From a virus, in IMG/VR virus record IMGVR_UViG_3300032278_000104, positions 1 through 25,774 of that record: a DNA stretch of 25,774 bases, one strand, 5' to 3'. Position numbers and translations under genes: made by a program. The notes beneath the pieces are model-generated. The model was given only the letters and a program-made list of their open reading frames with translations, had not been told where the DNA came from and ran no database searches. This document shows positions 4,905 through 24,599 of this stretch, piece after piece. Numbering within the stretch: the first letter of the stretch is position 1; every line of letters starts with the position of its first letter.

Positions 4905-4923
4905 TTTCGTGGGGCTTTTTTTT
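4887..4923 (+). terminator. Intrinsic terminator abutting the portal start codon
   Basis: GCCTCATGAGAG (4887-4898) pairs along its full 12 nt with CTTTCGTGGGGC (4904-4915), including three G-U pairs, around an AATAA loop. Eight T residues follow at 4916-4923. This is a textbook rho-independent structure. The next base is the A of the portal ATG at 4924, and the right arm contains the only SD-like sequence (GGGG, 4911-4914). Termination and portal translation are therefore physically linked, either as an attenuator or as a boundary between packaging and head transcripts. Confidence 0.8.
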
Positions 4924-7170
4924 ATGCCAGAGAGCGAGTATCAGAACAAGCAGTCAATCCTAATGTCTGGGAAGATGAAGGAGTCGCTTGGATATAAGAA
5001 TTCTAGTCCTGCCAGTAAAAAGGTTCATAAGGAGGTTCTGAAGAGTTTTGAGCTTTTAGAGCATTATATGACCATGAGGGAAGAGTGGGCAACGAAGTTT
5101 AGAGAAGCTGAGCAGTTCAGGAATGGCGTTCAGTGGAATAAGCAACAGATGACTGAACTACAGCGACGTGGTCAATCTCCAATCGTAGTAAATCGTATAC
5201 ATCCTGCTATTGAAACAGCAAAAGCGATGCTTACATCACGTAAACCTGAATTCAGGGCTACAGCTCGTGAAGATAGTGACCGTAGGGTAGCAGGGGTCTT
5301 TTCTGATATATTTCAGTGGATATGGGATAAGTCTGCTGGTGACGTAGAATTGAAGAGAGCTATCGATGATTACTATGTAGGCGGTATGGGCGTATTACAA
5401 ACCTATCAAGACCCGCATGCAGACATGGGTAATGGCGAAGTATTCATAAAGGCAGTATATCCATTAGATGTATATATTGACCCAAATGCTAGAGATCCTT
5501 TCTGTAGGGATGCTGCTTCTATAATTATTGCAAGATTAATGACAGATGAGGAAGCTAAGGCACAATATCCAGATTATGCTTCTGTAATCGAACAGGCAGA
5601 GATATCTGATTATGTTAGGTATCCTAAGACAAATCTGGAACCACAGGATTCTCAGATATTTGCTGGTGACCTCGATCAGCAAGATAATGCTCATCACAAA
5701 AAACGTGAGTATATCGAGCGTTATACGCGCATAAAAGAGAAATACTGGAAAGTTTATGATACTACCAGTAAGTATCAAGCTCTTTACTCCGATGAAGAGT
5801 ATGAGAAGTATCAACGTGAACCAGCAGTACAGCTAGTGCCAACCGAAGGTGAAGCTCAGTATTCTACTGATCTTGATGAAGTACAGGCATATATGGAAAC
5901 AGCTGTTGAAGGTAATGGTTATATGCATATGGTTCAAGATCCGATGACAGGTGAACCAACTATGCAGCCAGGGATGGAATCACAAGGTGCTATACCTGGA
6001 AGTACTGTACAGATTGAAATGATGACGAAAGGCGAATTGATCGGAGAAGATATTATAATGGCAAATAAGATAGAGCAGGGTAGAGTTAAGATGTTTGTAT
6101 CAGTTGGCTCAAAACTGATGTATCAGAGAGTATTGCCATTAAATGACTACCCAATTGTTACTATGATGAATGTACACAATAGGAATCCGTATCCTGAAAG
6201 TGATGTACGTATTTATAGACCTCTTCAGGAGTACATAAATAAAATTAGGTCACTTATTATTGCGCATGCCTCTACGAGTACCAATGTCAAATTACTGATC
6301 CCGAGAGGCTCCGTTAATAAGAAGGAAGTGGAGCAAGAATGGGGTCGCGCTGGAACTGCTGTCATAGAATTTGACGGAGAACTGGGAGCACCTGTAGTTG
6401 CGGGCCCTGTTCCCCTTCCGAATGAGTTATACAAGAATGAAGCTGAAGCAAAACATGATCTTGAATATGGATTCGGTGTATTTGAGATGATGCAGGGTGG
6501 AGCTCAAGGCGCTCCAAGTACTTATAGAGGTACAGTAGCGATAGATGAATATGGTCAAAGAAGAATTAAATCAAGACAGGATGATATTGAGTCAGCTATG
6601 AATCAGCTGGCTACATGTGTTATACCAATGATTCAACAGATTTATACAGAGGAAAAAATAATAAGACTAGTACAACCCTCGGGTCTCATAAAAGAGACCC
6701 GTTTTAATTACGAAGGTCAGGATATTAGTGGGAAGATGATGGACGTTACAGTAGGCAGTTATGATGTTATAGTTGCTAGTGGATCAACCTTACCATCTAA
6801 TAGATGGGCACAGCATGAATACTATATGCAGATGTTCCAGGCTGGATTAATAGATCAGATAGAGATGCTAAAGAAAACAGAAGTAGTGGATGTAGAGGGT
6901 GTACTTGATAGAATGAATACTATAAAATTATTACAACAACAAATTCAACAGCAGGAAGAGGAAATCAAAGGCTTAAAAGGTGACCTACAGACTGCAGATA
7001 GAGAGTCAGTTCACGCAAAGAAAAGACTCGAAGTCGAGAAATTCAAGTCAGACTTATCAGATCAAGCAAGTAAAGGACAGGCTGCAGTTAGTCTATTCGA
7101 TGCTCGTTTGAAAGATACGTTGGCTGATGTGAGACAATCGGTTAAACCAGAAAAAGGAGATCGTAAATGA
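4924..7170 (+). CDS. Portal protein (P22-like)
   Basis: A protein of about 748 residues that would form the dodecameric ring at the capsid vertex through which DNA enters and leaves. Its length and N-terminal half fit the long P22-type portal family: a helical start, the segment HPAIETAKAMLTSRKPEFRA, GGMGVLQTYQDPH and VYPLDVYIDPNARDP. The C-terminal 100 residues are a Gln/Glu/Lys-rich coiled coil, comparable with the portal barrel helix. An in-frame GTG at 4909 would add five residues, but it lies inside the terminator stem, so I prefer the ATG at 4924. It ends with an ATGA overlap to the scaffold-like gene. A perfect hairpin is encoded at 6680-6701. Confidence 0.88.
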   Translation: MPESEYQNKQSILMSGKMKESLGYKNSSPASKKVHKEVLKSFELLEHYMTMREEWATKFREAEQFRNGVQWNKQQMTELQRRGQSPIVVNRIHPAIETAKAMLTSRKPEFRATAREDSDRRVAGVFSDIFQWIWDKSAGDVELKRAIDDYYVGGMGVLQTYQDPHADMGNGEVFIKAVYPLDVYIDPNARDPFCRDAASIIIARLMTDEEAKAQYPDYASVIEQAEISDYVRYPKTNLEPQDSQIFAGDLDQQDNAHHKKREYIERYTRIKEKYWKVYDTTSKYQALYSDEEYEKYQREPAVQLVPTEGEAQYSTDLDEVQAYMETAVEGNGYMHMVQDPMTGEPTMQPGMESQGAIPGSTVQIEMMTKGELIGEDIIMANKIEQGRVKMFVSVGSKLMYQRVLPLNDYPIVTMMNVHNRNPYPESDVRIYRPLQEYINKIRSLIIAHASTSTNVKLLIPRGSVNKKEVEQEWGRAGTAVIEFDGELGAPVVAGPVPLPNELYKNEAEAKHDLEYGFGVFEMMQGGAQGAPSTYRGTVAIDEYGQRRIKSRQDDIESAMNQLATCVIPMIQQIYTEEKIIRLVQPSGLIKETRFNYEGQDISGKMMDVTVGSYDVIVASGSTLPSNRWAQHEYYMQMFQAGLIDQIEMLKKTEVVDVEGVLDRMNTIKLLQQQIQQQEEEIKGLKGDLQTADRESVHAKKRLEVEKFKSDLSDQASKGQAAVSLFDARLKDTLADVRQSVKPEKGDRK
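6680..6705 (+). terminator. Terminator-like hairpin inside portal gene
   Basis: CGGGTCTC (6680-6687) pairs perfectly with GAGACCCG (6694-6701) around ATAAAA, and TTTT AATT follows. The stem is GC-rich and the U-run short (4). It is encoded within the reading frame. It may cause partial termination or pausing, or be a processing site; a chance coding hairpin is also possible. Confidence 0.4.
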
Positions 7171-8232: not shown

Positions 8233-9594
8233 ATGGCTACATATTCAGTAACGCCAGGTGTAAGTCCTACCGCAGGAGTCTCGATTGATGATAATCGTAG
8301 GTTATTTGATTTCGGGGAACGAGTTGCGGAGTTAGCACCTGAGCAATCACCCTTCTTTGTTTACCTCTCGAAGGTAGCAAAGAAACCAACCCCTGACCCT
8401 GTCTTTAAGTTTTTAGAGCAGCGTCACCAATGGCAGAGACGTAATTTTGATTTAATCGATGCCGTTAATTCAGCTGATCCAGAAAGTGCACCTACTGCTA
8501 TAACAGTAGATTGTTCTTACGATCAGTACGGTAAATCCGTAGATACACCCGTCGCACCAAATTATTTTGTTGCAGACGGTTCCCAGGTTATTAGTCTAGC
8601 GATGACTGATGACAATGATTCAGACGCAGCAGTTGCTGTAACAATGCGCGTAACTGGTGTTTCAGTTGCAGGCGCAGTTGCAACTTTAAGTGTAAGTGTA
8701 ATTGCCGTAGATGGTAACACTACTCCTGGCGAATGGACTTCTGCTGTATCAGCAGCTACGAATGCTAAAGGTCAAGTAATTGGCACTGCATTCCAAGAAG
8801 GAACTGGGGCTCCATTAGGTTGGAGAGATGAACTCTCTGATCGTGAAGGATATTGTCAAATATTCAAAACAGCAATTGATCTGTTCAGTGGAACATCATT
8901 ATCTACATCATATCGCGGTTATTCCGACGAGTATCGTCGTGTATGGCGTGAGAAGTTGATGGAGCATAAGATGGATATCGAACACGCAATGCTGTTTGGT
9001 GTTGGCAAATCCGATGAATCTGGTGCTGGGCCGAGAAGGTACAGTCATGGTATAGTTCCTTATATTAAAGCTAATGGCGGAAAATATTCGGAATTCCAGG
9101 CTGCTAATGGCGCAGGTCAGTCAACTTACGATACCTTCATCGATTACATGGAAGACTATTTTGCTCCTGAAAAGGGCAATAGTGGTGACAAGCTTGTCTT
9201 GGCATCTCGTCCAGTAATCGCGTGGATGAATAAGTTGGGTACAGACTCATTCTGGAATAATACAGGCGGATCGTCTTCTTATTCATTAGACATCGCTAGT
9301 ATTCCAGGATCATTTGGACATAATGTAACGAGGATAAATACCGCTTTTGGTAATCTTCATATTGTCCAAGAACCATTATTCAGGGGCGCATATAGCGGCC
9401 ATATGGTATTGGTTGATCTAAAGAATGTGGCTTATCGTCCATTATCTGGTAATGGCAAGAATCGTGATACTCATATCATGACGAATGTCCAGGCTAATGA
9501 TATAGACGGAAGAAAGGATATGATCTTAACCGAAGCTGGTTTAGAGGTTAGCCTTCCTGAGACCCACGGTATCATCAACTTTACGGATTTATAG
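8233..9594 (+). CDS. Major capsid protein (SU10-type, HK97 fold)
   Basis: A 453-aa shell protein. The N-terminal segment LFDFGERVAELAPEQSPFF (24-42), then VFKFLEQRHQWQRRNF (57-72), is characteristic of the SU10-like branch of HK97-fold capsid proteins. Residues about 95-185 form a Val/Ala/Thr-rich beta insertion, likely a surface domain. The conserved YCQIFKT segment (207-213) and the helix leading to HAMLFGVG follow, then the P-domain-like C-terminus. It starts with ATG after GGAGAATAAAAC, a good SD. A GC-rich hairpin lies 22 nt after the stop, consistent with protecting or delimiting an abundant transcript. Confidence 0.85.
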   Translation: MATYSVTPGVSPTAGVSIDDNRRLFDFGERVAELAPEQSPFFVYLSKVAKKPTPDPVFKFLEQRHQWQRRNFDLIDAVNSADPESAPTAITVDCSYDQYGKSVDTPVAPNYFVADGSQVISLAMTDDNDSDAAVAVTMRVTGVSVAGAVATLSVSVIAVDGNTTPGEWTSAVSAATNAKGQVIGTAFQEGTGAPLGWRDELSDREGYCQIFKTAIDLFSGTSLSTSYRGYSDEYRRVWREKLMEHKMDIEHAMLFGVGKSDESGAGPRRYSHGIVPYIKANGGKYSEFQAANGAGQSTYDTFIDYMEDYFAPEKGNSGDKLVLASRPVIAWMNKLGTDSFWNNTGGSSSYSLDIASIPGSFGHNVTRINTAFGNLHIVQEPLFRGAYSGHMVLVDLKNVAYRPLSGNGKNRDTHIMTNVQANDIDGRKDMILTEAGLEVSLPETHGIINFTDL

Positions 9595-9651: not shown

Positions 9652-11379
9652 ATGGCAGATAGAAATGTAGAGTCAATGGTAGAAGACCTAATAGGTCCTT
9701 TAGTTGATGTTTCTGAAGATCCAGTAGCAGAGAATGTAACAGCAGTTACCGAATGGGCATCTGATATTGCTCGTGAGGTTATAAATGTATTACCAACAGA
9801 GATGTTATGGAGCGTAGGGGCAGAGATAGACGAGCCTGGATCAGGCGCTACTGTAACAACAGCAAAATTTTTACATGCCCATAAGAGTGGGTATAAAGCT
9901 ATAGAAATAGATGCAGCAGATAAAGCAAGAGCGACTGATAGTGGCTCTATCTTATATGCTACATCTAAAAGTCCAGTGTATTATAGGGAGAACGGAAAGG
10001 TACATGTCAAACCAGACGGTGGAACAGTAGTGGCGGTAAACTATCCAACTATAAATCACGATGACGCAACAATAACAGGAGTACCAGATGACGTTAAGCA
10101 CTTGGTAATAATGGGTACAGCAGTAAAGGGCAGGTTGTTTCAATTAGACGCACTCAGGCGCTCTTTAGATTTACTAGAGGCCCCTGACTACAATACAGCA
10201 AATGCAAACTTAGTTCTCGTGCCTGTACCCAGTATTACTGATCTATCTCTGGTTTCAGCTCCTTCTGATATGATAGATCCAATATTTTCTGACGGCTCAG
10301 TTGAAAGTTCAGATGTCAGTTTTGAAGAAGATCGACCAGTGTTTAATAAACCAGTGTTTTCTCCGCCTGGATTTCCTACTATAAATGATTTGGATTTGAG
10401 TTCTATAAGTGGTGATCTACCCGATGCAAGTGGCATTGTAATACAAAACTATGAGGTAGGATCTTTACCTGCTAGTCCGCCAAATTATAGTAAAACTACT
10501 GCACCAACGCAAACATATGATATAGCGCAGTTTGAGACTTTCTTAGAAACTGAGGAAGACTCCGAATTGGCAGATAGTCAAATGAGAAGGTTAAATCATG
10601 AGGTGTCTGTATATCAGGCTGATCTTCAAAAATATGCGAATGATATTCAGGAAGAATTGAATGAGTTCAATAAAGAGAACGTAGAGTATCAGGCGGAATT
10701 GCAAAAAGTAATAATGGACGCCCAGGCTAAACAACCTGAAGATGCAGCGAAATTACAAAAACTGCAGGCTGAACTAGGAAGATATCAAGCACTGGTGCAG
10801 AATGAGGTTGCTGAATATCAGAACAATGAATTGCAGAATAAATATCAAAGATGGGTTACTGAGTATACAAATGGCTTACAAGAATATGGGGCTAATATTC
10901 AGAATGAATCACAAAAATTTAATGAAGCAAATAATGAGTATCAGGCAAATCTGCAGATCGCTATACGTGATGCAGAAGCCAAATCTAGGGAATATTTACA
11001 AGAAGGTAACAATAAACTACAAAGTGAAGTACAGGAATATTCTAATAAATTGCAGAATCATGGAGCAGCCTTACAAAGATATGCTGCAGAAGTAAATTCC
11101 CAATTGCAAGAATATGGCGTGAACGAGATTCAAAAAGAGATTGGATTATGGCAAGCAGAGAATACTCAGAAATTGCAAAAGTATGGCGCAGATTTACAAA
11201 AAGAAACTGCACGCCATGGTAGTGATATGCAAAAGTATCAGATAGATATACAGAATATCTTTCAAAAACATCAAACAATGACACAAGAATTACAAGTATT
11301 GGATGCTCAATATACAAGAGGACTACAGACTTTCGTAGCTTCTTATAAAGAACCAATGCAAAATGCTAAAGGAGTATAA
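9652..11379 (+). CDS. Structural protein: adaptor-like N-terminus with long coiled-coil repeats
   Basis: 575 residues with three parts. Residues 1-180 are mixed alpha/beta with the order seen in head-tail adaptor-like proteins: helix AVTEWASDIAREVINVLP (31-48), strand SPVYYRENGKVHVKPDGG (107-124) and helix DDVKHLVIMGTAVKGRL (146-162). Residues about 185-290 form a Pro/Ser/Asp-rich linker. Residues about 310-555 form a long Gln/Glu/Asn-rich helix with recurring LQ-Y-N-L/IQ units spaced about 11 residues apart, suggesting a hendecad coiled coil. The SD is AGGGGAAAAT before ATG. Lying just after the capsid gene, it probably belongs to the head, neck or a head fibre, but the exact role is unknown. 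Confidence 0.7.
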   Translation: MADRNVESMVEDLIGPLVDVSEDPVAENVTAVTEWASDIAREVINVLPTEMLWSVGAEIDEPGSGATVTTAKFLHAHKSGYKAIEIDAADKARATDSGSILYATSKSPVYYRENGKVHVKPDGGTVVAVNYPTINHDDATITGVPDDVKHLVIMGTAVKGRLFQLDALRRSLDLLEAPDYNTANANLVLVPVPSITDLSLVSAPSDMIDPIFSDGSVESSDVSFEEDRPVFNKPVFSPPGFPTINDLDLSSISGDLPDASGIVIQNYEVGSLPASPPNYSKTTAPTQTYDIAQFETFLETEEDSELADSQMRRLNHEVSVYQADLQKYANDIQEELNEFNKENVEYQAELQKVIMDAQAKQPEDAAKLQKLQAELGRYQALVQNEVAEYQNNELQNKYQRWVTEYTNGLQEYGANIQNESQKFNEANNEYQANLQIAIRDAEAKSREYLQEGNNKLQSEVQEYSNKLQNHGAALQRYAAEVNSQLQEYGVNEIQKEIGLWQAENTQKLQKYGADLQKETARHGSDMQKYQIDIQNIFQKHQTMTQELQVLDAQYTRGLQTFVASYKEPMQNAKGV

Positions 11380-11381
11380 AT

Positions 11382-11897
11382 ATGGCAAGTAGAGTAGAAT
11401 ATGCGGTGAGTTTAACACCCATAAGAACAGTAGCGGCATCTGGGGATTACGCTGCCCATGATGTGATGGCTACTGATATAAACGGATCATTAGGAGCTTC
11501 TTCTAGTGTAAGCACCACAGCGCCAGATCATACTACTGTAGGATATGCGTCAGGTGCAGTCGCATACAAGAATGCTATAGCTAATGGTGGCGTAAAGGTA
11601 AATTTAGGAGATGTTACAGCAAATTCGGCTGATGGGGATGATTATAAGATGGTTTTTATAAAGCATACAGGATATGAGTTTGGTGACGCAACAACTTTAG
11701 GAGCAACAGCTAATACTGCGCAAGATTTGATAGTTTATTTAGAAACATCCGCTGATTTGGCTACTTCTGCTAAGTTTACATTACCAGCAAATGCTGCAGT
11801 ATGTATTCCGAATCTTGAACAAGCTGCTAGTTGCGGTATATGGTGTGAATCTTCTGGAGCAAATACGATAGCTGTGGAGTACGCGCTTATATCATGA
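11382..11897 (+). CDS. Small beta-rich structural protein (171 aa)
   Basis: A 171-aa protein rich in Ala, Thr, Val, Ser and Gly, with alternating hydrophobic residues that suggest a beta sandwich. There is no signal peptide, membrane segment or catalytic motif. It starts three bases after the coiled-coil protein, with an AAAGGAGTATAAAT ribosome-binding site, and overlaps the next gene in ATGA. Its place between capsid and adaptor fits a head-decoration, neck or tail-completion protein. I do not recognise the family. Confidence 0.6.
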   Translation: MASRVEYAVSLTPIRTVAASGDYAAHDVMATDINGSLGASSSVSTTAPDHTTVGYASGAVAYKNAIANGGVKVNLGDVTANSADGDDYKMVFIKHTGYEFGDATTLGATANTAQDLIVYLETSADLATSAKFTLPANAAVCIPNLEQAASCGIWCESSGANTIAVEYALIS

Positions 11898-12202
11898 CCC
11901 AGCAGGAGATTATAGAACAAATTCAACAAGTACATCCTGAGATAGGAGAAACTCAGTTACGTCTTATGCTGAATACTGCGCTTGATGAGTTTGCTCATAG
12001 AGCTAGATTAAATGAGAAACTCGGTGCTGTTACAGTAGTTGCTGATCAAAGATATTACGATTTTAGTGATTTTGATAGTGTAACGCTTGATGATGATGTT
12101 CTGGAAGTGTTACAAGTGACTTATGGTAATTCAACGGATGGGGAATTTATTATGAATCACTTTCTTGGTGAAGTAGAGCCTATAGATATGGATGAGGCTT
12201 AA
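11894..12202 (+). CDS. Head-tail adaptor-like protein, N-terminal half (split gene)
   Basis: 102 residues beginning with a helical bundle (EIIEQIQQVHPEIGETQLRL, then LNTALDEFAHRARL), followed by the strand segment TVVADQRYYDFSDFD and a hydrophobic beta stretch. This is the order of the first half of phage adaptor proteins, which bridge the portal ring to the tail: helix, LN-AL-EFA-R, TV-Y-YDL. The frame stops at TAA 12200-12202. The expected remainder, beginning with the WFV/LGIG strands, continues in the next frame. The start overlaps the upstream stop in ATGA. It is either a two-chain adaptor or a gene interrupted by a frameshift. Confidence 0.65.
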   Translation: MTQQEIIEQIQQVHPEIGETQLRLMLNTALDEFAHRARLNEKLGAVTVVADQRYYDFSDFDSVTLDDDVLEVLQVTYGNSTDGEFIMNHFLGEVEPIDMDEA

Positions 12203-12203
12203 T

Positions 12204-12578
12204 ATGGGTGCTCCTCAAAAAGAAAAGATTTGGTTTGTCAAGTTAAATAAACTTGGCATTGGCATATATGATCGTAGCAATAAGAAGACTGCATCATTTG
12301 CTAGTAGCGATATAGATGCTGGTGATAAAATAAGAATATTATATAGAAGTAAACCTGAAAAATTAACAAGTACTCTTAGCGCTTCGCCTGACATACCTAG
12401 TCAGTTTCATAAAGGTATAATGTATCGCGTTATGGAACAGATTAGTGCAAGAAAGGGCGATTATAAGGGTGCACAGTATTATCAAATAGAATATGAAAAG
12501 TGTGTAAAAATGGCAAAAGAATATGCAAATAAAGGAAGGGATAGTACTTCTTATAGAGTTGTCCCATATGATTTCTAA
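12204..12578 (+). CDS. Head-tail adaptor-like protein, C-terminal half (split gene)
   Basis: 124 residues from ATG 12204. It begins with the strand pair KIWFVKLNKLGIGIYDR, then an IRILYRSKPEKLTS strand, then the helix DIPSQFHKGIMYRVMEQISARKGD and a long helix ending YEKCVKMAKEYANKGRD...VVPYDF. This matches my recollection of the second half of phage adaptor proteins. GGATGAGG gives a good SD 6 nt before this ATG, encoded at the end of the N-terminal half. An earlier in-frame ATG at 12192 would overlap the first half by 11 nt. A +1 shift near GAG-GCT-TAA would fuse both halves into one chain of about 228 residues. Confidence 0.65.
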   Translation: MGAPQKEKIWFVKLNKLGIGIYDRSNKKTASFASSDIDAGDKIRILYRSKPEKLTSTLSASPDIPSQFHKGIMYRVMEQISARKGDYKGAQYYQIEYEKCVKMAKEYANKGRDSTSYRVVPYDF

Positions 12579-12922
12579 TGGCTGCTGGTGTACATAATAT
12601 AGAAATAACAAAAGGTACAGATTTTTCATTGACTATGACTTTGAAGGATGCTGGCGGTGCTGCATTGAATGTAACAAACTATACATTCAAATCTCAGATT
12701 CGCAGAAAGCAAAGTACAGGAACGGCTGCGGAATTCACTATAACAAAGACTAATGCTGCTGGAGGTCAAATAAAGCTTGCGCTTGCAAAATCAGTCACAG
12801 CTGGGTTGCCTAATGGTAAATTATTATATGATCTGGTAGCTGATGATAGCTCTGAGGTAAGGCAATATGTAAAAGGAAAGGTTACAGTAATAGATACGGT
12901 AACTGATACTAGCGGAATGTGA
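12578..12922 (+). CDS. Small Ig-like/beta-sandwich phage structural protein
   Basis: 114 residues with the pattern IEITKGTDFSLTMTLKDAGG, NVTNYTFKSQIRRK, a TITKTNA strand, IKLALAKSVTAGLP, GKLLYDLVAD and VKGKVTVIDTVT. This order of strands resembles small phage proteins with an Ig-like or baseplate-upper-protein N-terminal-like fold. Such proteins often sit near connector and fibre genes and may mediate attachment. The ATG overlaps the upstream TAA by one base (TAATG). Recognition is by pattern only. Confidence 0.55.
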   Translation: MAAGVHNIEITKGTDFSLTMTLKDAGGAALNVTNYTFKSQIRRKQSTGTAAEFTITKTNAAGGQIKLALAKSVTAGLPNGKLLYDLVADDSSEVRQYVKGKVTVIDTVTDTSGM

Positions 12923-13264: not shown

Positions 13265-14182
13265 ATGGCTAATACAATTAAAATCAAACGACCAAGCGCT
13301 TATGATTCAGGTTCTGATCCTGGAAGTCTTGTTTATGGGGAACTCGCCTGGGCGAACGGCAATAGTAAGTTCTTTGTTGGTAAACAGACTGATAATGGGG
13401 GTACAGTAGCTGTATATCATTTGCCTAGCTTGAGGGACTTAACCGCAGGAGATGGCTTAGATGCTACATCACCATCTAATGGGAACGGTGCCATAACTTT
13501 ATCACTTGATCTAAAATCAAGTGGTGGATTAAAAATAGACTCTACTGAAGTTGCAGTGGAACCAGCAGATATAGCTGGTTCTGGTTTAGAAGACGACGGT
13601 AGTGATAATTTAAGAATTGCAGCGGCAGCTGCGGGAACAGGGTTGTCTGGTGGAGCAGGCTCAGCACTTTCGGTAGACTATGGGTCTTCTGCGGGTGATG
13701 CAGTACAAGGAAATGTTACTGTTTCTGTAACAGGAACAGCTAATGAAGTGGATATTACTGGTACTACAGCTCAAGCACTTGGAGGAGGTCCTGCTTATAC
13801 AATAGGATTACCAAGTGATGTTACAATAGGAAATGATCTTACCGTAACTGGTGATTTAATCGTTAATGGATCTACTGTTACTGTTAATTCGAGTGTGGTT
13901 ACAATTGATGATCCTATTTTTACTCTTGGTGGTGATTCAGCTCCTGGTAGTGAAGACGGCAAAGATAGGGGTATTGAATTCAGACATTATTCTGGAAGTG
14001 CCAAAATTGGTTTCTTTGGCATGGATGATGACGATAGTAAGTTTAAGTATATACCTGATGCTACCAATTCTTCAGAAGAATTTTCAGGCGCTGTTGGAAG
14101 CAGTGAGTGGAATGATTTGGAAGCCGCTACTCTGACTAGTGCTACTTTAGGATCTTGTACGATTGACTGTGGCACTTATTAA
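13265..14182 (+). CDS. Tail fibre protein (305 aa)
   Basis: The N-terminus MANTIKIKRPSAYDSGSDPG, then LVYGELAWANGNSKFFVGK, is the IKI-R...YGELA...L/FF-G pattern of phage receptor-binding protein N-terminal domains. The middle is Gly/Ala/Ser-rich and beta-like. From about residue 195, LTVTGDLIVNGSTVTVNSS followed by TIDDPIFTLGGD is a domain common in aquatic phage fibres. The C-terminus has repeated TLTSATL-like strands. RBS AAGGCAAGGA. The last A of its TAA is the A of the next fibre's ATG, so the two are translated together. Probably a homotrimer at the tail tip. Confidence 0.75.
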   Translation: MANTIKIKRPSAYDSGSDPGSLVYGELAWANGNSKFFVGKQTDNGGTVAVYHLPSLRDLTAGDGLDATSPSNGNGAITLSLDLKSSGGLKIDSTEVAVEPADIAGSGLEDDGSDNLRIAAAAAGTGLSGGAGSALSVDYGSSAGDAVQGNVTVSVTGTANEVDITGTTAQALGGGPAYTIGLPSDVTIGNDLTVTGDLIVNGSTVTVNSSVVTIDDPIFTLGGDSAPGSEDGKDRGIEFRHYSGSAKIGFFGMDDDDSKFKYIPDATNSSEEFSGAVGSSEWNDLEAATLTSATLGSCTIDCGTY

Positions 14183-17100
14183 TGGCTAATACCTTCCAGA
14201 TAAAGAGGGGAACTGATCTTAGTAACGCTGGCACGCCAGCGGCTGGAGAACCTGTATGGAATAGTTCTACAAGCAAACTATACATAGGTGATGGTTCTAC
14301 TGCTGCTAGTTCTCTCTCGCAAGTAGGCTCAGAGTTTCTACCTCTAGCTGGTGGGACTCTTACAGGAGCCCTGTCTGGTACTACAGGTTCTTTTTCGAGT
14401 ACTGTAACCGCCTCTGGGCTCACAATAGGTTCTGCGGCAATAACAGAAGCAGAGCTTGAAATATTGGATGGAGCCTCGGTAACGACAGCCGAGTTGAACA
14501 TTCTAGATGGTGTGACCTCTACAGCGTCGGAACTCAATATATTAGATGGGGTAACCTCTACAGCCGCTGAATTGAATATCTTAGACGGAGTTACCTCTAC
14601 AGCGGCAGAACTGAATATCTTGGATGGAGTTACTTCGACAGCCACAGAAATAAATCTACTTGATGGAATTACTACTCTCTCTGGGAGCAATACAGGGGAT
14701 CAAACCTTACCAACTGACTTTGTATCAAAGGCAAGTGGTGGGACATTTACAGGGGTAACAAAGGTTGCAACTACTACTCGTCCTCAATTTTTGGTTTCCT
14801 ACGGAGGAACTACTGGTTTATTTATTAGGGATGCCACTTCAGGTGGGAGAGGTTGGCAAATATCAACATCAGAGTTTACCGCCCACAATATTGAGTTTAC
14901 ACCATCAACCGCAGATGATGGTACTACATTTACGACACCAGCAATGGTTATAAACGGAACAACTGGCAGGGTCGGTATCGGGACAAATGCTCCAGATACA
15001 GCTTTACATATCAAAACAACAGCAGTAGATAATGTTCTGCAAATAGAAAATTATGATAACTCTGGAGATAGATTTGCTGAAATGCAGTATCATGTATATG
15101 GGACTATGAGAGGCTCGATAAGAGTTGGTTATTCTTCCGCTACTGATAATTGGCATAACGCATACGGTGGAACAATGCATATTTTTGCTGCTTCTGACCA
15201 TAGTGCTGAGAAAATGAGGATAGACGCTTCAGGTCGTGTAGGTATAGGTGTTGTACCAGAGACATGGAGTTCTAACCAAGATGCATTACAAATAGGTGAT
15301 ACTGGGGCTGTTTGGCATCTGACATCTGGAGGGATTGAATCAACATATATCGGGAATAATGTTTATTATAATTCGGGTTGGAAAGCAATAACGACTGGTC
15401 CAGCATCAAAGTTTCAGTTAAAAGACGATACAATGTGGTTTCAAAATGCTGTATCAGCCGATGCTGATGCCACTCTATCTTTTTATGACAGGATGTGTAT
15501 ATTGGCTGATGGCAATGTCGGCATCGGGACAACTAGTCCAAATTTTCCATTGGATGTTAATGGTGGTATAGGTCTAGCTCAAGGTGAAGTGATTTCTTGG
15601 CATGATGGTTCTGCGTCTGAGGCTGGTTCTATTTATTTTGATAGTTCTGATAATTTTCATCTACGAACTACATCAAATTCAACTGAAAGATTCACTATTT
15701 TAGCGGCAGGCAAAGTCGGCATCGGGACAACCGCTCCAGAAGGTGGTCTAAATGTTCATGGTACATATACTATACCATCAACTGGAATAGGCAATTCAGC
15801 AATTTTTGCTTCGTCTTCTGATGGATTAGTAGCAGATAAAGGTGGTGTAATCCAATTTGGGGGTATTTATAATTCTAGTAATGCTATTACTCAATGGGCT
15901 GGCATTGCTGGATTAAGAGATAATGCTACTGATGGTAATTATGCTGGTTATATGGCTTTTTATACACGGGCTCAGGGGGCGGCACCTGTGGAAAGAATGA
16001 GAATTAACTCGGGTGGTAATGTCGGGATCGGGACAACGAATCCTTCGTCTGGAGCAGGGTGGACACCACTTTTAAATATTCAACACGCTACAGACCCTGC
16101 TATAATAATTAAAGATACAACTACTGCACAAGAAAGTTCAATGGGTACAGCTGGTGCAGGTTTATTCATAGATGTTTCAGGACATGCAACTGCTACAAAT
16201 AATAAGATATATTTTAGAACTGGCCCAACGAATAGTAATTTTGGGACAAATACGAGAATGACCATAGACAGTGCAGGCAATGTTGGAATTGGGACAACTA
16301 GTCCACGAACAACTTTGAATGTCAGGCACGATACTGCGTATCCTTTAGGGCCTGCTGCTAATCAAACATTAATATTACATGGACAAGCAGCGACTAGCAA
16401 AGGTGGGTCAATAGGGTTTGACTATCACGATTCTGCAAATACTAATGTTCCTGCTTCAATAGGTTATTCAATTGAAGATACTGGTGCTAATACAAAAGGT
16501 TCATTGATATTTGCAACAAGAAGCGGAACTACTGATGCTGCACCAACTACCAGAATGACGATTATGTCATCAGGCAATGTAGGGATTGGGACAACCACTG
16601 ACCTTATGTCGGGAGTATATACAACATCAACTAAATTATCAGTATATGGTACAGAAAGGTCTATTCTTGAATTAGGTTCTTCAAAAACTGGTAATGGTGA
16701 GCCAATGGGAGCAATACAGTTTATTAATAATGATAATGCTGATGCTACTAATTTTGATGCTGATGCAAAGGTAATAGCAATTGTACAAGCTGAAACTGCA
16801 ACGAGTGATTCTAATGCTGGTGATGATTCTGGTGGTGAATTGTGGTTCTATACAAAACCTGAGGCTGATACTATAGCTGCTAATATGGTTATTATGTCAG
16901 ATGGCAAAGTCGGCATTGGTCGTACAGACCCATCCGAAAAACTTCATGTACAAGCTGGTAGCGTTATGGTAACATCAACTGCCTATGGTGAAGGTAGATT
17001 AATTATGATGGGTAGAACTGGACATCAATACGAATGGTATATAGATGACCCGTCCTCCACTCAAATGAGTTTGTATAATAGAGGTAGGGGTGGATATGAT

Positions 17101-19074
17101 TTAACTTTTGCAGGAGGTGATGCACACTTTTATAACAGCGTTCAGGTTGATGATGGTCTCTCAGTTGGTGTTGACCTTACAGTTACTGGGAAAATAGATG
17201 TTAATGGCTCAGGTCTTTCTACATTTAAAGAGGTGCGGATAGGCTCAGACTCTGCTGATGCTCAATTAGCAGTCACATCTAATACATCAGGTGAACCTGC
17301 CGTTTGGATAAAAGCAGGTGGGGCAAGTGATTGTATGCACTTTGTGGCAGGAAACAATTCTGCAAATTATATAATTAAGGCCATGGATGAGAACAGTAGC
17401 AATGTTGTTTGGTCAGTGAAAAAACGAGATGATGCAGAGACATCAGAAAATTTCGATATGGTACTGAAAGGCAACGCCACATTTGCTGGGAGTGTAAAAA
17501 TTGACCATGTACAACCTAATTTCTATATAAATGAATCAGACCAATCTACTGATAACAAATTATGGGGAATGAGTGCCGAAGATGGAAATTTATATTTTTC
17601 GGCAATAAATGATGGTCTTAGTGCAAGTACTAACTGGTTGTTAGTAGAGAGAACAGGCACAACAATAGATGGTATTTATTTTCAAGATATGGTTGGAATA
17701 GGTAACACAACAGACAAAGTAGGTACTACTGGATTAGTACTTGGCGTTAATGACCAAAGAATAGAATTAATTTGCTCAACATATTTAGCTGGCTATGGAT
17801 GGCAATTAGAAAATGTGGATAATACTGGTGGTTCACATGAATTAAATTTCAATTATAGGTCTAATTCTACTTCTTGGACTAATTCGCTAAAATTGAAAAA
17901 TGATGGTACAGCCACATTTGCTGGGAGTATAACTGCAAATGCTGAAGCACATTATTTTAATAATACAGGGGGCAATTCTAATGTATATATAAAGGCATCT
18001 AATAGCGGTCAATCAAGACTCTATTTTGGTGATGTAGCTGATGGTGGTGTAGGATTTATTGATTATGACCACGGTACGGATATGAGGATTGGTACTGGTG
18101 GAGCAACAAGAATGACTATTTTAGAGTCTAATGGCAATGTCGGAATTGGAGTTTCTGCTCCTGCTCATAAACTTCATGTTGATGGTAATCTTGTTATTAA
18201 AGATGATGGTTACATTGGGGTACAAAATGATGCTAATACAGACTACGGCTACGCTTTTCAACTTGAATATGGTGGTCACCTGATTATTAATCCAGCTCTA
18301 CATTATTATCATACAGTAATTCCAACTGGGTGGGTCGGCATCGGGATAACTGCAGCTACAGCACCGTCTGCCAAATTACAAATTTATGATGCTAACGGAG
18401 GAGACAACACAGGAATCAGAATAGAAGATGACCTTTCAAATTTTCGAATATATAATGATACCAGTAATGTAACTATTCTTACTAAGGGGTCTAGTGGGGG
18501 AAATTATCAAAAGATAAAGTTTGATGGTGTTTATGTTGGTATTAATGATGACCCTGGTTCTTATGCTTTAAAGACTAGCGGTGATGTATATATGTCAGGT
18601 AATAATGCATATATATACACAACAGGTGTTCATATGAATGGCACTTTAAATGTAACAGGTACAAAAAACTTTAGGATTCCACATCCATTACCATCTAAAA
18701 AAGATACACACGATTTAGTTCATACATCAGTTGAAGCACCAAAAGCAGATTTAATTTATAGAGGCGAGGTTCAGTTAGAAGATGGTTCTGCTACTATTAA
18801 TATCGATACACACGCAGGGATGACATCAGGGACTTTTGTTTTATTATGTGATGATGTCCAATGTTTTACTACCAATGAATCTGATTGGGGTGCAGTAAAA
18901 GGTTCAGTATCAGATAATGTTTTAACAATAGAATGTGAAGACTCATCTTCAACTGCTTCTGTATCATGGATGGTCATTGGAGACAGAAAGGATGAATCAA
19001 TTATAAATTCACCTTTTACAGATGAAAATGGTAAACCAATTATTGAGCCTGAACAAGTTTTTGTTCCAGAGTAA
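14182..19074 (+). CDS. Long repetitive tail fibre protein (1630 aa)
   Basis: The largest gene in the window. The N-terminus MANTFQIKRGTDLSNAGTPA and EPVWNSSTSKLYIGDG parallels the preceding fibre and probably anchors it to the tail. Residues 90-167 hold six 13-residue AELNILDGVTSTA units. From about 263 to 1320 a shaft carries about ten GNVGIGTT(S/A)P motifs, each followed by a short L-V/I strand, typical of trimeric beta-helical fibres. From about 1494 a C-terminal domain starts with KNFRIPHPLPSKKDTHDLVH and ends near SWMVIGDRKDE; I recall similar domains in environmental phage fibres. There is no obvious S74-type self-cleaving chaperone. The role would be host-surface recognition. GC-poor segments alternate with the conserved VGIG repeats. 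Confidence 0.85.
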   Translation: MANTFQIKRGTDLSNAGTPAAGEPVWNSSTSKLYIGDGSTAASSLSQVGSEFLPLAGGTLTGALSGTTGSFSSTVTASGLTIGSAAITEAELEILDGASVTTAELNILDGVTSTASELNILDGVTSTAAELNILDGVTSTAAELNILDGVTSTATEINLLDGITTLSGSNTGDQTLPTDFVSKASGGTFTGVTKVATTTRPQFLVSYGGTTGLFIRDATSGGRGWQISTSEFTAHNIEFTPSTADDGTTFTTPAMVINGTTGRVGIGTNAPDTALHIKTTAVDNVLQIENYDNSGDRFAEMQYHVYGTMRGSIRVGYSSATDNWHNAYGGTMHIFAASDHSAEKMRIDASGRVGIGVVPETWSSNQDALQIGDTGAVWHLTSGGIESTYIGNNVYYNSGWKAITTGPASKFQLKDDTMWFQNAVSADADATLSFYDRMCILADGNVGIGTTSPNFPLDVNGGIGLAQGEVISWHDGSASEAGSIYFDSSDNFHLRTTSNSTERFTILAAGKVGIGTTAPEGGLNVHGTYTIPSTGIGNSAIFASSSDGLVADKGGVIQFGGIYNSSNAITQWAGIAGLRDNATDGNYAGYMAFYTRAQGAAPVERMRINSGGNVGIGTTNPSSGAGWTPLLNIQHATDPAIIIKDTTTAQESSMGTAGAGLFIDVSGHATATNNKIYFRTGPTNSNFGTNTRMTIDSAGNVGIGTTSPRTTLNVRHDTAYPLGPAANQTLILHGQAATSKGGSIGFDYHDSANTNVPASIGYSIEDTGANTKGSLIFATRSGTTDAAPTTRMTIMSSGNVGIGTTTDLMSGVYTTSTKLSVYGTERSILELGSSKTGNGEPMGAIQFINNDNADATNFDADAKVIAIVQAETATSDSNAGDDSGGELWFYTKPEADTIAANMVIMSDGKVGIGRTDPSEKLHVQAGSVMVTSTAYGEGRLIMMGRTGHQYEWYIDDPSSTQMSLYNRGRGGYDLTFAGGDAHFYNSVQVDDGLSVGVDLTVTGKIDVNGSGLSTFKEVRIGSDSADAQLAVTSNTSGEPAVWIKAGGASDCMHFVAGNNSANYIIKAMDENSSNVVWSVKKRDDAETSENFDMVLKGNATFAGSVKIDHVQPNFYINESDQSTDNKLWGMSAEDGNLYFSAINDGLSASTNWLLVERTGTTIDGIYFQDMVGIGNTTDKVGTTGLVLGVNDQRIELICSTYLAGYGWQLENVDNTGGSHELNFNYRSNSTSWTNSLKLKNDGTATFAGSITANAEAHYFNNTGGNSNVYIKASNSGQSRLYFGDVADGGVGFIDYDHGTDMRIGTGGATRMTILESNGNVGIGVSAPAHKLHVDGNLVIKDDGYIGVQNDANTDYGYAFQLEYGGHLIINPALHYYHTVIPTGWVGIGITAATAPSAKLQIYDANGGDNTGIRIEDDLSNFRIYNDTSNVTILTKGSSGGNYQKIKFDGVYVGINDDPGSYALKTSGDVYMSGNNAYIYTTGVHMNGTLNVTGTKNFRIPHPLPSKKDTHDLVHTSVEAPKADLIYRGEVQLEDGSATINIDTHAGMTSGTFVLLCDDVQCFTTNESDWGAVKGSVSDNVLTIECEDSSSTASVSWMVIGDRKDESIINSPFTDENGKPIIEPEQVFVPE
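14449..14682 (+). repeat. Six tandem 39-bp coding repeats
   Basis: Six consecutive 13-codon units encode (A/S/T)E(L/I)(N/E)(I/L)LDG(V/A/I)(T/S)(S/V/T)T(A/T) at residues 90-167 of the long fibre. The four central units are nearly identical at protein level but differ at synonymous positions, so the repeat is old and selected as protein. LDG repeats of this type occur in phage fibre shafts. Confidence 0.85.
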
Positions 19075-21093: not shown

Positions 21094-21853
21094 ACAACGT
21101 GCGATTGTCATTCCAGATCAACATTTTCCGTATCATAGCGAGGTTGCGCTTAATGTCATAATAAAGGCAATGGCTTTGGTAAAACCGCAGATTCTGGTGA
21201 ATCTCGGTGATGTCGGTGAGTGGTCTAGCGTTTCACCCTGGCAATATAAAGGGAACAGGAAAAGACCGCCACTCGAATTTGTCCTACCTGAGGTAGACAA
21301 AGAAATAGAGGCAGTGAATGCTGGATTGGACAAGATAGATGAGGCAGCTAAGAAAGCTGGCGTTAAAAAGAAGTACATGTGTACTGGGAATCATGATATA
21401 TGGTTAGACAATTTTGTAGAACGATATCCATATTTAAAAGAATATGGTTTTAATAACGCATGCAAGCTGAAGGAACGTAAATACATTGTATACAAATACA
21501 ATCAACCATTAACAATAGGAAAGATTACATTTATACATGGAGCTTATCATACAGTGTATCATGCAAAGCGTCATCTTGATGCTTATGGTTCATCTTTGAT
21601 ATATGGACATACACATGATGTGCAATCTCATTCTCTCACTAAACTTGGCGGTACTATCAGTGCCCATGCTCTTGGATGCATAAAAGATATGAGTGCTGAC
21701 AAAAACGAATGGTTAAGAGGCAGACTGCATAACTGGTCGCATGCTTTTGGTATAGTTGATTGGTTCACCAATAGAGATTTTAGAATAGAGGTAGTAGAGA
21801 TCCATAATGGCGTAACATCTGTATGGGGAAAACTAATAGACGGTAATGCCTAA
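21083..21853 (+). CDS. Calcineurin-like metallophosphoesterase
   Basis: 256 residues with the full metal-binding set of the family: PDQH (Asp12, His14), LGD (Asp43), GNHD (102-105), IHG (His152) and GHTH (175-178). All catalytic ligands are present, so an active di-metal phosphoesterase is expected. Substrates in this superfamily range from phosphoproteins to nucleic acids and cyclic nucleotides; the sequence does not say which. Overlaps of 11 and 8 nt with its neighbours place it in the late operon, although it is not a typical structural or lysis gene. It could process nucleic acid or counter a host nucleotide signal (speculative). Confidence 0.85.
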   Translation: MKIKQRAIVIPDQHFPYHSEVALNVIIKAMALVKPQILVNLGDVGEWSSVSPWQYKGNRKRPPLEFVLPEVDKEIEAVNAGLDKIDEAAKKAGVKKKYMCTGNHDIWLDNFVERYPYLKEYGFNNACKLKERKYIVYKYNQPLTIGKITFIHGAYHTVYHAKRHLDAYGSSLIYGHTHDVQSHSLTKLGGTISAHALGCIKDMSADKNEWLRGRLHNWSHAFGIVDWFTNRDFRIEVVEIHNGVTSVWGKLIDGNA

Positions 21854-24599
21854 AAAAGTATATGAGATCAATCCATTCCATGGCGGTATCAATACAAAAG
21901 ATGACCCCAGGGATATACTCGATCATCAGCTTGTAGATGTATTAGGAGCTTCTGTTGATTCTAAGGGTGTATTAAAGGTAATTGGTAATGCTGAAGACCT
22001 GGATATAACTATACCTGAAGCGTATCGTAGTGATAATAATGCATCTGGTTATGGATTCTTTCGTTTTAGCGCTGATACTGACGCTTCTGGTAATTCAGGC
22101 ACTGATGCAGATAATACTGATTATCTTCTTTTCTGGAGTGAAGATACTGAAAAATGCTATTGGTATAATGCTGACGACGATGCATGGACTGAAGCATTAG
22201 ATCTAGTTACACCATGGTCTGCAGCTGCGACTGATGGTAAGAGGAAGCCTATCTTTTCATTTGCTAATGGTGCTCTTCGAATAGCTGATTCTAATTTTAA
22301 TAATACAACGAATGAGACCTATTGGAAAGGCATTCTTGATAAGACGATTTTTAAAGGAGCGTCGAATCAAAGGGCTGATTCTGGTTGGTATACTCAATTA
22401 GCTTCAGTCGCGAAGCCTTCTGCAGCGCAAATTAAATCAGCTCTAATACTTGACGATGATCATACCCAAGTAGAAGATATAACTTGGAGTATATTTTCTG
22501 CAAGAGATTCTACTATTGATGTCTGGCGCGGTATGGATGATGAGGACGATTGGACTCTTGATGATGATTCTGGGGAAGTACTTGATTGGATAGATAGGCG
22601 ATATGGAGGAGGGCCATATGGATTACAGTGGTATCAGGAAGTTGGATGGCAATCGAACGATTGGGATGGCTCAAATGACTCTGCGCAAACTCATGGTTAT
22701 AAAATACACAAAGATGAAGCTACAGGATCAGCTGGCCTACGATGGTCTGGTTTTACAATAGACCCAGAAAAAAGTTTATATTTATCTTTACAATTAGAAT
22801 CTCAGGATCAGTTTGACGCTTGGGGTGCGGGATGGGCTAAGAATGCCGCTACTACAGTACAGTATGCCAATCTTACATTTGAATTATGGTTTGAAGAAGA
22901 TAATAGTAAAACTATAAGATGGAATATCAATTCAGCAGATTTACTGAAAAATGGTATTGATTGGTTCACTCTTGAACTTCCATATAGCGATGCTTTCGCT
23001 AATACGCTTGGAACTGATTATGATATAGAAACCATAAGGATAACATTAGATTCTAATGTTGTTAGATCAGAGTCTCATGACTATGAGAATATTATAAATT
23101 GGAATGCTATAAATATGGCAGATTTGAGACAAGGTGAACCAGATTTATTAGGTAAGGATTTATTAGGTATACGAGAAGTAGCGTATTCATTTGCATATGA
23201 TGATAAACGCACTGAAAGTACATTGCGAAGTTTGGGAAAAGTAGATTTTGGTTCTAGTATTTATGATTTTGGACATTCTATCCAATTTGGTGCGGAGAGT
23301 TTTACGAATAAGCGTATAAGAGGTGGAACTTTATATGTTTATGATAATGATATACCATATATGTTAGCGGAAGCAGACCTAGTTTATGGATTGCGTGGTA
23401 GTTGGGAATCTGATTGGCCAGGAGACGATACATCTACTGATCAATGGACACAATCTGATAATGGTTCTTCTGAATTACAAGAAAATGGATGTAGTTCCAA
23501 TGTTATATCATCTAATACTGTTCCATTGATAGAAACCTTTCAAGCTAGAAATGGGTTTAGCCATAAAGAAGATACTACTGACGCAAGGTACAAGTCTCTA
23601 GTGATAACTAATAATAGAGCCTATGCTGGAAATGTTTATATAGATGGTAAACATTATCCTGATAAGATGATAAAATCACAAGTATTTGATTATGACGTGT
23701 TTCCATTGGAAGGAAGATCTATTGATGTAGTGCAGGAGGATGGTGATAGCATCACAACAATGGCTACTTATGCAGATCGTATTTTTCAATTCAAGCGCAA
23801 AAAGTTATATATAATAAATATCAGTGAGACTGAGTTTCTCGAAGATGCTCATATTGGTTATGGTGTAGATCAACCACAGTGGGTCACTGAAGCAGATAAG
23901 GGAATAGCTTGGTTTAATAGAAATGGTGCTTATTTCTTCGATGGTAAGCAGATAAATAATCTTACCGATGGACTAATTGATCCTGATATATGGAGAGATT
24001 TTGTGGACGATGGTGGTAGTACAGGTCAGATATTTTATTTACCATTACAATCAAAAATACAGATTATAGGAGGTTATGTATTTCAAGGTATCCCTTGGTA
24101 CAATTATGAGTTTTCGCTTATAACTGGTGGTTGGTCTAGAGGAAAACGAAGATATATTCCAGGGGTAAGCGCTGATGCAACAAATCCAATCTTGGATATA
24201 GACAATGATGTAAAGGTTATTGCTCCAGATACTGGTAAGGTTTATAAATGGTCAGATACTGCTACCGATGCTATTGGTATAGCTGCTACATATTACATAG
24301 AAACTGGTGATAAAGTATTTGACTCTTCAGCTATTCGAAAAAAGATTTATCGTGTGCACATAACTCATAAGGGAGTTGGTGGTGCTACTGTGCAAGTCCA
24401 CGGAAGACCTGATAGAGGCACATATGTACTGTTAGGAGCATTAACTGATTATGATAATTTTACTGTTGAGGAATTCGATGTCTCTGGAATGAGCAATGCT
24501 AAGAGTTTTCAATTAAAAATAACTCAAACTGGATCACTTCCTGCTGATTTTGAGATTAATGATATAAATATAATATACAGAAGTAAGAATGTTAGGTAG
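21846..24599 (+). CDS. Large tail/nozzle-like structural protein (917 aa)
   Basis: 917 residues. The N-terminus YEINPFHGGINTKDDPRDIL then QLVDVLGASVDSKGVLKVIG is the NPF-GGINT-DP-I...L-N-GSV-L pattern of large podovirus tail proteins. Near residues 640-720, TMATYADRIFQFKRKKLYII and PQWVTEADKGIAWFNRNGAY with YFFDGKQINNLTDGL resemble the beta-propeller-like body of P22 gp10/nozzle-type proteins. It has many aromatic and acidic residues and no membrane segment. In podoviruses such proteins extend the tail below the adaptor and plug the channel. Its distance from the adaptor genes is unusual. Confidence is moderate, by pattern. Confidence 0.6.
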   Translation: MPKKVYEINPFHGGINTKDDPRDILDHQLVDVLGASVDSKGVLKVIGNAEDLDITIPEAYRSDNNASGYGFFRFSADTDASGNSGTDADNTDYLLFWSEDTEKCYWYNADDDAWTEALDLVTPWSAAATDGKRKPIFSFANGALRIADSNFNNTTNETYWKGILDKTIFKGASNQRADSGWYTQLASVAKPSAAQIKSALILDDDHTQVEDITWSIFSARDSTIDVWRGMDDEDDWTLDDDSGEVLDWIDRRYGGGPYGLQWYQEVGWQSNDWDGSNDSAQTHGYKIHKDEATGSAGLRWSGFTIDPEKSLYLSLQLESQDQFDAWGAGWAKNAATTVQYANLTFELWFEEDNSKTIRWNINSADLLKNGIDWFTLELPYSDAFANTLGTDYDIETIRITLDSNVVRSESHDYENIINWNAINMADLRQGEPDLLGKDLLGIREVAYSFAYDDKRTESTLRSLGKVDFGSSIYDFGHSIQFGAESFTNKRIRGGTLYVYDNDIPYMLAEADLVYGLRGSWESDWPGDDTSTDQWTQSDNGSSELQENGCSSNVISSNTVPLIETFQARNGFSHKEDTTDARYKSLVITNNRAYAGNVYIDGKHYPDKMIKSQVFDYDVFPLEGRSIDVVQEDGDSITTMATYADRIFQFKRKKLYIINISETEFLEDAHIGYGVDQPQWVTEADKGIAWFNRNGAYFFDGKQINNLTDGLIDPDIWRDFVDDGGSTGQIFYLPLQSKIQIIGGYVFQGIPWYNYEFSLITGGWSRGKRRYIPGVSADATNPILDIDNDVKVIAPDTGKVYKWSDTATDAIGIAATYYIETGDKVFDSSAIRKKIYRVHITHKGVGGATVQVHGRPDRGTYVLLGALTDYDNFTVEEFDVSGMSNAKSFQLKITQTGSLPADFEINDINIIYRSKNVR

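Follow-up and report, generated by a model that had tools for sequence, protein, structure and literature searches.

Adaptor rings are core neck parts of tailed phages, and those that we found described are composed of single chains. In SU10, the adaptor gp11 (PF24175; PDB 7z47) is a single polypeptide combining a helix bundle, a dock domain and a C-terminal embracing loop; there is one adaptor ring, and the embracing loop grips the portal (PMC9509320). In crAss001, several paralogous rings are present, represented by the ring proteins R1-R4 (7qoj), and the authors state that other podoviruses had shown one only (PMC10172136). Microcystis phage Mel-JY34 and Vibrio phage VS-ABTNL-3 encode ordinary single-chain adaptors of 217 and 205 aa, both matching PF24175 at 46 bits.

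Here we analyzed a window of 25,774 nucleotides, which represents one single IMG/VR virus record (IMGVR_UViG_3300032278_000104). The window phage and SU10 resemble each other in their genes for portal, adaptor and capsid: a P22-type portal protein (4909-7170, plus strand; PF16510 P22_portal, 180.9 bits) and an SU10-type major capsid protein (8233-9594, plus strand; PF17236 SU10_MCP, 103.4 bits) were identified, together with a terminase. SU10 has one single-chain adaptor; in the window phage, the adaptor is divided over two chains and accompanied by a further adaptor-like protein. By the same split, the window phage differs from Mel-JY34 and VS-ABTNL-3, which are distant relatives by capsid protein. 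More than one adaptor-fold ring protein, as in crAss001, is predicted for the window phage, where only two adaptor-like proteins were found, and a split ring protein, which the window phage has, was not found described in PMC10172136. We likewise found no published account of a split adaptor in the open-access literature. Searches of named phages by tblastn with the N-terminal half, the C-terminal half or the single chain of relative L011 gave no match, and a scan of bacterial genomes revealed no relative, hence no host.

Two reading frames matching one adaptor family

The N-terminal half of the putative split adaptor (11894-12202, plus strand) encodes 102 aa and the C-terminal half (12204-12578, plus strand) 124 aa, in agreement with the earlier note. 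At the junction (12190-12206, plus strand), the N-half terminates with TAA at 12200-12202 and the C-half starts with ATG at 12204-12206, placing it in the +1 frame after a 1-nt gap. The frames had also been described as overlapping, which holds only if translation starts at the alternative in-frame ATG at 12192, yielding the longest second ORF (128 aa) with an 11-nt overlap; it does not hold with ATG 12204. The Shine-Dalgarno-like motif GGATGAGG at 12190-12197, noted before, indeed precedes ATG 12204 with a 6-nt spacer. Many stops interrupt the N-half frame past 12202, and the C-half frame upstream of the junction.

Profile searches supported the proposal that the two products together have the order and extent of one adaptor. 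Against Pfam SU10_adaptor (PF24175; profile length 194, curated cut-off 27 bits), the N-half alone scored 20.5 bits over profile positions 19-75 and the C-half alone 20.3 bits over 114-182, both below the cut-off, with the two matches ordered along the profile and non-overlapping. Joined in natural order, the halves produced one collinear stretch (21-182) at 41.4 bits (E = 2.9e-10), so that the joined chain passes the family cut-off that neither half passes alone. The joined score in itself is weak evidence, because a control with the halves in reversed order also summed to 37.1 bits, distributed over two stretches; for this sequence match it is the single collinear stretch, rather than the joined bit score, that counts. 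The joined pair of L048 likewise gave one PF24175 stretch, at 50.4 bits. The SU10-like single polypeptide with helix bundle, dock domain and C-terminal embracing loop is absent from the window, where two ORFs are found instead, and we file the protein as a candidate two-chain variant of SU10_adaptor.

Two helices are predicted in the N-half region (residues 3-13 and 19-36), followed by the first strands; these helices correspond to the confident part of an AlphaFold2 (AF2) model of the L011 single chain, which as a whole reached pLDDT 58 from badly aligned input and gave no fold match. A phmmer match of the joined chain to the PDB entry 'Far1' (E = 0.002) was rejected, as a profile search returned no Far1 match. 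Directly after the C-half lies an LtfC-like/phrog_1084 protein (12578-12922), whose TAATG overlap start resembles the split junctions of relatives.

A second adaptor-like protein upstream

The gene next after the major capsid gene (9652-11379, plus strand) encodes a second, unsplit adaptor-like protein of 575 aa. Its N-terminal domain (residues 1-213) was modeled by AF2 with pLDDT 83 in an adaptor fold, and the best Foldseek matches were SU10 7z47, cyanophage A4 9k09 and crAss001 7qoj, with E-values down to 2.6e-4 at modest TM-scores of 0.4-0.5. A Pfam profile search revealed no PF24175 match in the window protein itself; its compact homologue in L072 (199 aa) passes the PF24175 cut-off at 27.3 bits. 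The remainder of the protein is probably a long coiled-coil extension, repetitive in sequence (..LQKYGADLQ..), and the lengths of the homologues, 178 to 1148 aa, show that it expands and contracts within the lineage. Since this unsplit gene sits upstream, the split protein is one of two predicted ring proteins, rather than the phage's only adaptor.

Comparison of the two adaptor-like families with hhalign gave a weak alignment (P = 0.0015, probability 17%) that runs collinearly through the break; taken at face value, it places the break in the loop leading into the third strand (around residues 96-108) of the upstream model. Neither the split-family nor the upstream-family profile directly detected the outgroup phage adaptors, so the link of both families to those adaptors runs through PF24175.

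The split among relatives

Relatives were gathered by scans starting from the capsid protein and the N-half, followed by a search of all ORFs with profiles of each half. This yielded 109 distinct split pairs (the window included, the rest being IMG/VR relatives) and four distinct single chains, where distinct means different DNA; an 80% identity cut leaves 60 members, including the 4 single chains. The earlier note had proposed looking for the split in relatives, and its presence in 109 distinct sequences, with variable spacings and with intervening genes in six, bears out the real split that the note had favored. The nearest relatives, L002 and L003 (approximately 60% identity), share the split, their junctions reading ATGA and TAATG. 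Across the 109 pairs, the spacing was -1 nt in 83, +2 in nine, -4 in eight and -8 in two, in addition to the window's own; in the remaining six, one or two other genes separate the halves by 448-1311 nt. Overlapping stop and start codons (-1 or -4 nt) thus occur at 91 of the 109 split junctions, compared with 33% of 805 other same-strand junctions from the same loci, a difference that indicates a tendency rather than a test because the loci are related. A Shine-Dalgarno-like motif precedes the C-half in 77 of 103 adjacent cases, counted without a chance control. Judged from these junction sequences, coupled reinitiation of the C-half is plausible, although coupling is not essential in the six relatives, since genes intervene there between the halves.

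In four of these six (L038, L043, L060 and L079), the intervening ORF is about 150 aa and resembles, as judged by eye, the 171-aa protein encoded upstream of the N-half in the window (11382-11897, plus strand). L025 carries one ORF between the halves (9784-10467) and L021 two (9782-11094), of 200-236 aa and different from the 171-aa type; the intervening proteins of L021 and L025 are related to each other. In L040 (9459-10040) and L049 (8899-9480), the N-halves are 193 aa long and carry a C-terminal Ig/fn3-like domain, below the Pfam cut-off, exactly at the break. From such sequences, the break point may accommodate added domains.

In the 109-pair set, neither half is missing from any split locus whose sequence is complete. 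Nei-Gojobori dN/dS over disjoint close pairs was 0.111 for the N-half (30 pairs) and 0.115 for the C-half (22 pairs), and both halves are under purifying selection, with dN/dS about 0.11. Collectively, the sequences show that the split is a stable natural design of an uncultured tailed-phage lineage. Among the C-half ORFs of the set, one measures only 61 aa, and in the adaptor tree L171 lies on an outlying branch; another copy that is broken or frameshifted may be present here.

A homologue spanning both halves, which had also been sought, exists as the single chain of four relatives (227-233 aa): L011 (227 aa), L112, L114 and L115 (233 aa). These chains continue across the break, where they carry an additional linker-like stretch rich in Ser/Thr/Gly/Ala, and the natural single chains of L112 and L115 match PF24175 end to end at 29.2 and 27.6 bits. 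In the adaptor tree (midpoint rooting), the four formed one clade (83/90) within the split lineage, and a capsid tree, with its root on four named phages, placed L115 and L114 next to split phages at two points (100/100 and 98/88). Because the trees put them inside the split lineage, the single chains are probably re-fusions. One re-fusion combined with gene exchange would be the simplest reading of the trees, with the long outgroup branches leaving some doubt. Such re-fusions suggest that the halves act as one unit.

Proposed assembly of the neck

We consider it likely that the two adjacent genes are translated independently and supply the two chains of one SU10-type ring subunit. Most likely, a single message would give rise to both chains and these would co-fold, the N-half giving the N-terminal helices and first strands of the subunit and the C-half its other strands along with the long C-terminal helix and the tail, with the chains presumably associating without a covalent link. 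The family's C-terminal tail sits in the C-half. By analogy with SU10, in copy number as in neck position, the neck would hold two adaptor-type rings between portal and nozzle, one built from twelve such pairs and the other from the unsplit 9652-11379 protein.

The alternative of greatest weight is that the halves have diverged into two separate proteins, one of them, for instance, a decoration or assembly factor, with the 9652-11379 protein having taken the adaptor role. A homologue of that protein accompanies all 92 split loci testable for it (those with enough upstream sequence), and other genes can stand between the halves, both as divergence would allow; however, complete split loci always keep both halves, selection on the two is similar, single chains recur inside the split lineage and the two halves, once joined, align as a single adaptor, which makes divergence unlikely. 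Programmed ribosomal frameshifting, fusing the two frames into one adaptor, was suggested by their close adjoining in the window, where a programmed +1 shift had been among the options raised, yet the halves of L002 and L003, the nearest relatives, stand in another frame relation than the +1 of the window, and the varied spacings and the genes separating the halves in six relatives render it untenable and highly improbable. That one gene was disabled by a recent mutation, or only looks broken through an error of sequencing or assembly, an option for which only the shape of the junction speaks, is effectively excluded by the varied spacings and intervening genes, by the 109 distinct sequences from many assemblies that share the split, and by purifying selection on both halves.

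Returning to two chains of one subunit, a broader reading, which we favor with some reserve, is that the neck of this large lineage contains a ring whose subunits are obligately two-chain, beside a second, single-chain ring, that the break tolerates an added domain or added genes, and that the halves were re-fused at least once. A natural split throughout a lineage would demonstrate that the ring tolerates a chain break, and the break would offer a ready-made spot for tags or added domains in laboratory phages. The paired adaptor-like genes suggest that multi-ring necks may extend beyond crassviruses. For annotation, the locus is a warning that adaptors encoded as two short ORFs, each under family cut-offs, will be missed.

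Two further genes of the window may concern the tail. A 917-aa protein without a family match (21846-24599) could, as a guess from its size and place, be the nozzle protein, and a 1630-aa protein (14182-19074) contains repeated ELNILDGVTSTA and VGIGT.. motifs, resembling a tail-fibre or tail-spike protein.
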